DNA from: Bacilli bacterium
Lineage (GTDB): Bacteria; Bacillota_I; Bacilli_A; RF39; UBA660
Assembly (NCBI GenBank): GCA_017938725.1
Contig: JAGBAW010000006.1
Location: 1 to 38,128, forward strand
Direction of reading: 5' to 3'
Length of the DNA: 38,128 bases
The notes below the pieces were generated by a model. That model worked only from the letters and a program-made list of their open reading frames with translations. It ran no database searches and was not told where the DNA came from. Position numbers and translations under genes: made by a program. The first letter of the stretch is position 1. Every line of letters starts with the position of its first letter. Of this stretch, positions 36,236 to 38,128 are shown piece after piece.

Positions 36236-36319
36236 ATATAAATAAAATTAAGTGTTAAATTAATGCTTTTTTTGTATTTTATTATAATTTATGTAAATAA
36301 TAATTACTAGGTGATGATA

Positions 36320-37090
36320 ATGAATGTATTAATAACAGGTGCAGCTTCTGGAATAGGTTATAATGTGGGTTTAAGACTTGCAAAAATGGGGTATCATGTA
36401 TTTCTAACTACTGAAGATGATAAACAACTTGAAGTATTAAGGGAGAAAATAGATGAACTAGATAATATAGGCACATTTAGATTAAACGTTGAGAAAAAGG
36501 AAGATATTGAATTACTTAGAGATTTTGATGTAGATGTACTTATATCTAATGCAGCAATAGGACAAGGTGGAAGTTTGATTGACGTTGAAATGGAAAAGAT
36601 AAAGGAGTGCTTTAATGTAAATGTATTTTCTAACATTTCTATTATGAAAATAGTACTTGAAAATATGATAAAAAAAGGTAGTGGAAAAGTAATAATAATG
36701 TCCTCTATGATTTCAAATATTGCTATTCCTTTCTTTGGAATATATGCATCAACTAAAGCAAGTTTATCAATGCTTGGAGGGTGTTTAAGAAAAGAACTAA
36801 AATATATTAATAATAATATAAAATTAGCAATTATAGAACCTGGAATATATAAGACAGGGTTTAATAGAGTTATGATTGAAAATGGTTACACATCTAAGTA
36901 TTATAAATTCAATGAATCTGTAGAAAATTTGGAAAAAGAAATATTAAATTTTGTCGGTTCTAATAATCTAAATTCGATATCTAATAAAATAATAGAGGCA
37001 GTAGAAAGTGATAATCCAAAATGTATTTATAGAGCTCCATTTATACAAAATTTACTTATAAAATTGTATATTAAGTTTATAAAAAAATAA
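36320..37090 (+). CDS. Short-chain dehydrogenase/reductase (SDR)
   Basis: 257 residues from the ATG at 36320 (MNVLITGAASGIG), which has AGGTGA seven bases upstream; earlier starts at 36311 and 36314 lie on that site. Cofactor motif TGAASGIGY, the structural LISNAAIG, catalytic Ser in IIMSSMIS and Tyr-x-x-x-Lys in YASTK are all present. NAD(P)-dependent oxidation or reduction of an unknown alcohol or ketone. The C-terminal IKLYIKFIKK is hydrophobic and basic and may touch the membrane. Single gene with a terminator downstream. Confidence 0.9.
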   Translation: MNVLITGAASGIGYNVGLRLAKMGYHVFLTTEDDKQLEVLREKIDELDNIGTFRLNVEKKEDIELLRDFDVDVLISNAAIGQGGSLIDVEMEKIKECFNVNVFSNISIMKIVLENMIKKGSGKVIIMSSMISNIAIPFFGIYASTKASLSMLGGCLRKELKYINNNIKLAIIEPGIYKTGFNRVMIENGYTSKYYKFNESVENLEKEILNFVGSNNLNSISNKIIEAVESDNPKCIYRAPFIQNLLIKLYIKFIKK

Positions 37091-37127: not shown

Positions 37128-37157
37128 TAAAAAGTTACTTATTAGGTAACTTTTTTT
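37128..37157 (+). terminator. Terminator of the SDR gene
   Basis: AAAGTTAC-TTATTAG-GTAACTTT followed by TTTT. Confidence 0.7.
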
Positions 37158-37167
37158 CTCCCTTTTA

Positions 37168-37198
37168 TTGACAAATAACCCTGGGGGGGGGGTATTCT
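37168..37198 (+). promoter_or_regulatory. Promoter with a G10 tract in the spacer (candidate phase-variable switch)
   Basis: TTGACA (37168-37173) and TATTCT (37193-37198) are separated by 19 bases, ten of which are an unbroken run of G (37183-37192). Loss of one to three G would give the optimal 16-18 spacing. In so AT-rich a sequence a run of ten G is striking, and such runs change length by slippage during replication. Confidence 0.6.
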
Positions 37199-37226
37199 CT
37201 AGATAATAGATAGGAGAAAATTAAAT

Positions 37227-38128
37227 ATGAGAAGAAAAAGGTACATGACTAAAAAAAGAAAATTAAAAAGAAAAAGACTAGCACTATTATCAGTATTAAG
37301 TATATCAATGATAGGATTAGGTGCAGGGGTATTATTTTTAGATAATAATAGTAACTTAATAGGGAGATTAGGGGCAAATGCTTCTTGTTCGGGATTAACG
37401 GGGAATGCATTAACACAATGTCAAAGGAATCAATCATCATCAAGCAGTTCATCAAATACAAATGCTGTAAATGTATATTTATCCCAATCATCTGTAACAT
37501 TGGGAGTATCGGATTCAAAAACGATATCTGTAAAGGCCTCAAAAAATAATATTATTTTAAATTATGTTAATTGTAAAAAAACAAGTGGAAGTGCAAGAAT
37601 TCATGTAGAAAATGGGACAGGTTCTGTTAGGTTATATACTGAACCAGTAGTTGGCGACTCAAAAATAAACGAAACAGCAAATTTTACCTGTACAATTGGT
37701 TATTATCCAGATAATGGTAATGGAGCATATTCAAGTAAAAGTGTCAATTTAAGTGCCAGAATAAAAAATTATAATGATTCATCAAACAAAAATAATGTAG
37801 ATGGAACTAATTCAGCCAAGTTAGAATGCGAAAAAAAAGGAGGAACATACAAAAGAAATAGTGCAGGAAAATATCAATGTGTAAAACAATCAACAACAAC
37901 AAAACCATCAACAAACAACAAAAATAATGTAGATGGAACTGATTCAGCAAGGACAGAATGCATAAAATTAGGTGGAACATACAAAAGAAATAGTGCAGGA
38001 AAATACCAATGTGTAAAAACATCAACAAACAACAATAATAACAACGTAAATAAAAATTCAAGTAATACAAATAATAGTAGCTCATCATCAAATAGTAGCG
38101 CTAATAACAATACAACAATAAAAGAAAA
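37227..38128 (+). CDS. Secreted repeat protein, 3' end beyond the window
   Basis: The frame runs 300 codons to the window edge without a stop. AGGAG precedes the ATG. A very basic start (MRRKRYMTKKRKLKRKR) and hydrophobic helix (LALLSVLSISMIGLGAGVLF) form a long signal peptide or anchor. A Ser/Asn-rich linker and a beta-rich domain (about 90-185; NVYLSQSSVTLGVSDSKTIS, similar to bacterial Ig-like pieces) follow. Two copies of a ~36-residue repeat come next (37785-37895 and 37917-38027) with Cys near either end (SAKLECEKKGGTYKRNSAGK), then low-complexity Asn/Ser. Likely on the cell or spore surface; function unknown. Its promoter carries the G10 tract. Confidence 0.75.
   Translation, partial: MRRKRYMTKKRKLKRKRLALLSVLSISMIGLGAGVLFLDNNSNLIGRLGANASCSGLTGNALTQCQRNQSSSSSSSNTNAVNVYLSQSSVTLGVSDSKTISVKASKNNIILNYVNCKKTSGSARIHVENGTGSVRLYTEPVVGDSKINETANFTCTIGYYPDNGNGAYSSKSVNLSARIKNYNDSSNKNNVDGTNSAKLECEKKGGTYKRNSAGKYQCVKQSTTTKPSTNNKNNVDGTDSARTECIKLGGTYKRNSAGKYQCVKTSTNNNNNNVNKNSSNTNNSSSSSNSSANNNTTIKE
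37785..38027 (+). repeat. Two tandem coding repeats of about 132 bases
   Basis: Units starting AACAAAAATAATGTAGATGG recur at 37785 and 37917. Each codes for NNVDGT-x-SA-x-x-EC and GGTYKRNSAGKYQCVK. The copies differ at scattered bases, so the duplication is not brand new. Confidence 0.75.

Follow-up and report, generated by a model that had tools for sequence, protein, structure and literature searches.

A homopolymeric G tract in the promoter spacer of a predicted surface-protein gene: a probable phase-variation switch in a lineage of gut Bacilli

Poly-G promoters described so far

Most of what is known about phase variation through promoter spacers comes from a small number of loci in Gram-negative pathogens and spirochaetes. 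In Neisseria meningitidis, the porA promoter has a poly-G of 9 to 11 residues in its spacer, the length of which sets expression (PMC3639595). In Treponema pallidum, the promoter of tp0126 carries a poly-G between the -35 and -10 elements and gives the best expression with a 17-nt spacer, the promoter poly-G of tprE/G/J permits transcription at 8 G's or fewer, and tprL is also among the poly-G promoters of this organism (PMC7864442). In a Firmicute, Streptococcus pyogenes, indels in a T tract between Spy1336/R28 and Spy1337 alter the transcript level (PMC7098570).

The promoter analyzed here shares with porA the location of the poly-G between -35 and -10 and the type of gene that it precedes, which codes for a surface protein (a predicted one in our case), and with tp0126 the poly-G in the -35/-10 spacer. 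However, porA is graded rather than ON/OFF and is a single promoter of a Gram-negative pathogen, while our promoter belongs to a lineage of low-GC Bacilli in which some relatives have dozens of such promoters per genome. The tp0126 and tpr systems comprise few loci in a spirochaete, whereas the family studied here has a modal spacer of 19 nt and unrelated client proteins. The S. pyogenes case is likewise a Firmicute homopolymer upstream of a surface-protein gene, but it is a poly-T at a single locus, located in a divergent intergenic region beside a regulator gene, and has been described as altering the spacing of two direct repeats, not the -35/-10 spacer. The class of mechanism is already known (Neisseria porA, Treponema tp0126), and the apparent novelty lies in its scale within a lineage of uncultured gut Bacilli and in its recurrence in other phyla. 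In a limited set of open-access papers, we found no report of promoters with a poly-G spacer among Firmicutes that are uncultured or from the gut.

Promoter and client gene in the window

The window (the whole stretch of DNA analyzed, 38,128 nucleotides) is an entire contig, C29, of an AT-rich draft genome of 1,070,465 bases in 38 contigs that is 90% complete. Close to its end, the order TTGACA, spacer, TATTCT, AGGAG, and ATG can be read directly from the letters of the plus strand. The -35 element TTGACA (37168 to 37173) matches the consensus at 6/6 positions and is kept in a paralogue (see below) and in the family. The 19-nt spacer (37174 to 37192) consists of AATAACCCT followed by a homopolymer of ten G's (GGGGGGGGGG, 37183 to 37192), the proposed slippage tract, which forms the 3' end of the spacer and accounts for about half of it. 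Next come the -10 element TATTCT (37193 to 37198), with 4/6 matches to TATAAT (TATNCT/TATNAT in relatives), and a ribosome-binding site, AGGAG (37212 to 37216), 10 nt 5' of the ATG at 37227. The original prediction of TTGACA and TATTCT with a 19-base gap that includes ten G's was correct to the base. As in porA and tp0126, the G tract lies between -35 and -10, and tract lengths of G8, G9, and G10 give spacers of 17, 18, and 19 nt, all inside the 16- to 19-nt range.

The client gene (37227 to 38126, plus strand) is open at the contig end and codes for 300 amino acids of a predicted exported or membrane-anchored surface protein. Its N terminus (MRRKRYMTKKRKLKRKRLALLSVLSISMIGLGAGVLFL) is basic and then hydrophobic, as is typical of a signal or anchor, with the hydrophobic segment predicted from the translation at residues 18 to 38 (37278 to 37340). 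Beyond it, there are Ser/Asn/Thr-rich stretches and two repeats of ca. 30 residues with paired cysteines (VDGTNSAKLECEKKGGTYKRNSAGKYQCVK, 37797 to 37886, and VDGTDSARTECIKLGGTYKRNSAGKYQCVK, 37929 to 38018, both on the plus strand). None of the Pfam domains matched these 300 amino acids.

Such a tract is exceptional in its own genome. Besides the G10 described above, we found no run of 8 or more G's on either strand of the 1.07-Mb draft. In 655 kb sampled from it, there were 50 G runs of length 5, 4 of length 6, none of lengths 7 to 9, and one of length 10. Under a first-order Markov model of the window, the number of G10 runs expected was 0.001 per window strand and 0.03 per genome strand, and the chance of finding one in a given spacer was about 3e-7, in agreement with the earlier view that a G10 is extremely unlikely to arise here by chance.

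Recurrence in the family, in the phylum, and beyond

We searched 386 genomes of the same family with the pattern TTGAC-N4..14-G8+-TA, using the reversed pattern as a control. The pattern was found at 460 sites in 95 of these genomes, with 0 control matches, and the highest counts per genome were 42 (G161), 33 (G402), 20 (G148), and 19 (G101 and G385, each). In a wider sample of the phylum, it was present in 28 of 295 genomes (2 matches for the reversed control). The check suggested at the outset, a search for further poly-G runs placed likewise within promoters, was negative for the genome of the window and strongly positive for its family. Since a second run of at least 8 G's was not found in the former, we do not claim a genome-wide set of switches for this particular species.

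A strict form of the promoter (N9, G10, TATNCT) was found in 67 stretches of named genomes, a scan made without a chance control, so that matches outside the Bacillota are to be taken as leads. Many of the matches came from uncultured members of the Bacilli and Clostridia from the gut of rabbits and ruminants. The others included Treponema, Saccharibacteria, Parcubacteria, Moranbacteria, Phycisphaerales, an Elusimicrobia bacterium, and [Ruminococcus] torques ATCC 27756. Among viral contigs, there was one match to the promoter, in a GC-rich context, and none to the window's own flank.

In [Ruminococcus] torques ATCC 27756, a cultivable gut species, TTGACA-N9-G10-TATACT lies upstream of a predicted secreted protein (L109). 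Poly-G spacer promoters were also seen at nine loci of candidate phyla radiation (CPR) genomes, assigned to Parcubacteria, Saccharibacteria, Moranbacteria, and Magasanikbacteria (L099, L123, L091, L098, L105, L128, L101, L121, and L107). One Parcubacteria genome has the related flanks TTGACACGCGCATGA-G8 and TTGACATGCGCATGA-G10, and phase variation in CPR bacteria is possible.

G tracts in other arrangements were observed too. At two loci, L015 of G003 (same genus) and L028 of G021, a poly-G is found just after the start codon, and the long downstream open reading frame (ORF) (361 and 503 amino acids, respectively) is out of frame in the assembled allele, so that translational poly-G switches seem to coexist with promoter switches. 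Genome G028 (L006, L018, L136, L142, and L160) has 69 tracts of at least 8 G's upstream of genes, nearly all G8 or G9, in a box of about TTGAAAAAAATGCAACT-G8/9-TGCRATACAWT, a different and less variable element than the TTGACA-type tract promoter. In G007, of the same genus (L135, L141, L147, L153, and L159), there are 14 G tracts, and those read had no TTGACA. They share a downstream repeat (ATGAGTCTTAAACATTTT...), many are located 150 to 400 bases from contig ends, and each copy of a multicopy gene family has a tract.

Promoter spacing and tract length

Spacing was measured with the best -10 element of each promoter in an unselected set of family tract promoters (n = 70). The spacer was 14 nt in 1 promoter, 16 in 4, 17 in 6, 18 in 12, 19 in 31, 20 in 11, and 21 in 5, while promoter-like pairs without a G tract, taken from the window's own genome and the family loci, peaked at 17 nt. 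The common state of the family tract promoters, and the assembled state in the window, is therefore ca. 2 nt above the ordinary optimum. This mode was not created by the threshold of at least 8 G's because the commonest tract was G10 and G8 was rare. The lengths of the tract and of the remaining spacer were anticorrelated (r = -0.59), and the standard deviation of the total spacing was 1.16 versus 1.81 if both parts were independent, with the observed value of 1.16 reached in 0 of 10,000 permutations. Such compensation indicates that spacing matters. The position of the tract varies, since it may adjoin the -35 element (TTGAC-G10-TATTATATAATATAAT) or the -10 element (as in the window), with the total spacing kept.

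The peak at 17 nt in ordinary promoters, as against 19 in tract promoters, makes it probable that the allele assembled here, G10, represents the weak (low or OFF) state, with G8 as the strong one. The 17-nt optimum of tp0126 would lead to the same assignment if it holds here. A rival reading of the 19-nt mode is that G-rich spacers move the optimum itself to 19.

Tract length also varied among near-identical promoters of a single genome (compared using one genome per species, in draft assemblies that may add some length error). In G019 (TTGACAAATATGC), we found tracts of 9, 10, 11, 13, and 14 G's; in G017, 11, 12, and 13; in G342, 9, 10, and 11; and in G125, 11 and 13. Such differences would be expected if the tract mutates more quickly than the sequence around it. 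In some relatives, tract lengths were nearly constant (mostly G8 and G9 in G028 and mostly G10 in G402).

Taken together, we consider it very probable that the window promoter is a contingency promoter, in which slippage at the G10 shifts the spacer and, with it, the transcription of the client gene. RNA polymerase with the housekeeping sigma factor would read TTGACA/TATTCT, and slipped-strand mispairing during replication would add G's to the tract or remove them, so that -35 and -10 come to lie about 17 to 20 nt apart. Individual cells would then reversibly raise or lower transcription of the gene for the exported protein, the assembled allele (19-nt spacer) probably being low or OFF and alleles with G8 or G9 (17 to 18 nt) high. 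The slippage-driven phase variation of the original prediction is supported by the recurrence, the held spacing, the within-genome length differences, and the mostly exported clients (see below), from which we infer switching within the population and its effect on expression. Points that weigh against it are a -10 element with only 4/6 matches, a spacer mode displaced from the usual optimum, the nearly constant tract lengths of some relatives, and the clients that are not obviously surface proteins.

The sharp mode at 19 nt (31 of 70, compared to 17 nt in ordinary promoters) and the 69 nearly constant G8-G9 tracts within the one conserved box of G028 would also suit a fixed functional element, either the site of a long-spacer (MerR-like) regulator or a stiff, A-form-like DNA in which 19 nt acts as 17. 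We regard this as unlikely, since the flanks across genera have no common operator or dyad, the tract adjoins -35 in some genera and -10 in others, and a range from G9 to G14 among near-identical promoters of one genome is unlike a fixed site. MerR-type regulators act on promoters with 19- to 20-nt spacers, recognizable by a dyad in the spacer and a regulator gene nearby. Here, no dyad was seen by eye across the AATAACCCT-G10 spacer, and no MerR domain was found in ten neighbouring ORFs. A role for a G-quadruplex was set aside as well because the intramolecular four-run structure needs a longer G content than a single G10.

Upstream terminator and a second copy of the gene

The gene upstream of the tract promoter codes for a short-chain dehydrogenase (36311 to 37090) and is followed on the plus strand by its probable intrinsic terminator (37129 to 37155), a hairpin (AAAAAGTTAC..GTAACTTTTTTT) with a T run (-9.1 kcal/mol; z, -3.45). 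The terminator scanner, which requires three G-C pairs, missed this hairpin, and it was revealed by folding. The hairpin and T run should end the dehydrogenase transcript, so that the client gene needs its own promoter, and the terminator probably shields the tract promoter from read-through.

A second copy of the client gene is located at the end of contig C6 of the same genome (L008). The terminator, -35, -10, ribosome-binding site, and first ca. 45 codons of both copies are almost identical, while the proteins have unrelated middle parts. Most of the difference between the promoters is in the spacer, which in the paralogue is AATAACTCC-GGGGGAGGG, 18 nt long and with an interrupted tract. 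An interrupted tract should slip far less, and thus, the pair looks like a switchable (window) and a locked (paralogue) form of one promoter. The contig ends (37990 to 38128 in the window), 3' sequence of the gene, are identical over the last ca. 115 bases, the probable cause of the break in both contigs. Copies that share their ends but have exchanged middles suggest recombination between them. The matching 3' ends and unrelated middles also suggest additional copies and cassette exchange.

The weak -10 element, the long spacing, and a transcription start that is unmapped could be reconciled with an inactive promoter, the gene being transcribed from elsewhere and the length of the tract being irrelevant. 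This is very improbable given that a terminator hairpin precedes the promoter, that the paralogue keeps all the signals from terminator to ribosome-binding site while its spacer differs, and that the promoter scan listed no other site between the terminator and the ATG.

It is scarcely credible that the G run arose as an artefact of sequencing or assembly (two-colour Illumina poly-G or a homopolymer length error). This is a draft genome with a contig ending inside a gene, and elsewhere one contig end (L091) carries an artefact-like G30/G22, but unique sequence flanks the tract on either side, the same promoter position is occupied in many genomes from different projects, and the genome of [Ruminococcus] torques ATCC 27756 has the same design. 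The true length may differ from 10 by one, or 10 may be that of the majority allele. Chance or neutral expansion without a regulatory role is just as hard to credit: slippage can lengthen homopolymers anywhere, but the genome strand is expected to hold only 0.03 such runs, 655 kb had none of 7 to 9 G's, the 460 family sites stand against 0 control matches, and compensating lengths preserve the total spacing.

Genes behind the tract promoters

To characterize the clients, we used loci of the family and of other gut Bacilli, with the other ORFs of at least 150 codons at the same loci as background. A strongly hydrophobic N terminus was predicted for 57 of the 66 ORFs behind tract promoters versus 81 of 227 background ORFs (Fisher p ~ 1e-13), a contrast somewhat exaggerated by the spurious ORFs that the background includes. 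Pfam matches among the clients, counted in a convenience sample, comprised SpaA, Big_2, VWA, Listeria-Bacteroides repeats, DUF285, camelysin M73, and pilin-type N-methylation (N_methyl), as well as the baseplate Gp10 C-terminal domain, UDP-galactopyranose mutase, TupA ATP-grasp, and glycosyltransferase family 2. Some clients were not obviously surface proteins and matched cytoplasmic types, such as a DUF1292 protein (G001) and a GNAT acetyltransferase (L074). By prediction, the clients are mostly exported or surface related, and surface proteins, pilins, and surface-glycan enzymes make up the usual list of phase-variable functions.

Mismatch repair and sporulation genes

MutS and Spo0A are both present in all 7 sister species. 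In the family, MutS is present in most members and Spo0A in nearly all of those sampled, while neither was found in the 90% complete genome of the window. Missing contigs are the simplest reason for both absences. In the meningococcus, the phase-variation rate rose 1,000-fold in a mutS mutant (PMC3639595), and loss of MutS would increase slippage rates. We do not claim such a loss, and MutS deficiency as the cause of tract instability is not established given the completeness of the genome and the presence of the gene in all 7 sister species. The description of this organism as sporulating, part of the original prediction, is plausible from its sister species and unproven for its own genome.

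Implications for gut Bacilli

By the gain or loss of single G's, these gut bacteria probably turn many of their surface genes on and off at random. A broader proposal, to which we give slightly less than even credence, is that this family of small-genome, mostly uncultured gut Bacilli uses stochastic poly-G spacer switches genome wide (up to ca. 40 promoters per ca. 1.4 Mb), with a common state ca. 2 nt over the optimum and hence mostly OFF, and that switches of a similar kind have evolved several times in other phyla, Saccharibacteria, Parcubacteria, and Planctomycetes among them. The offset between 19 nt in tract promoters and 17 nt in ordinary ones provides a specific, testable clue to how the switches are set. 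Counts of tract length in metagenome reads already available would allow switching and selection in the gut to be measured without culture. Phase variation at hundreds of promoters in uncultured gut Bacilli would mean that commensals known only from metagenomes vary their surfaces by the same random switch as the pathogens, probably against phages, host immunity, or competitors.
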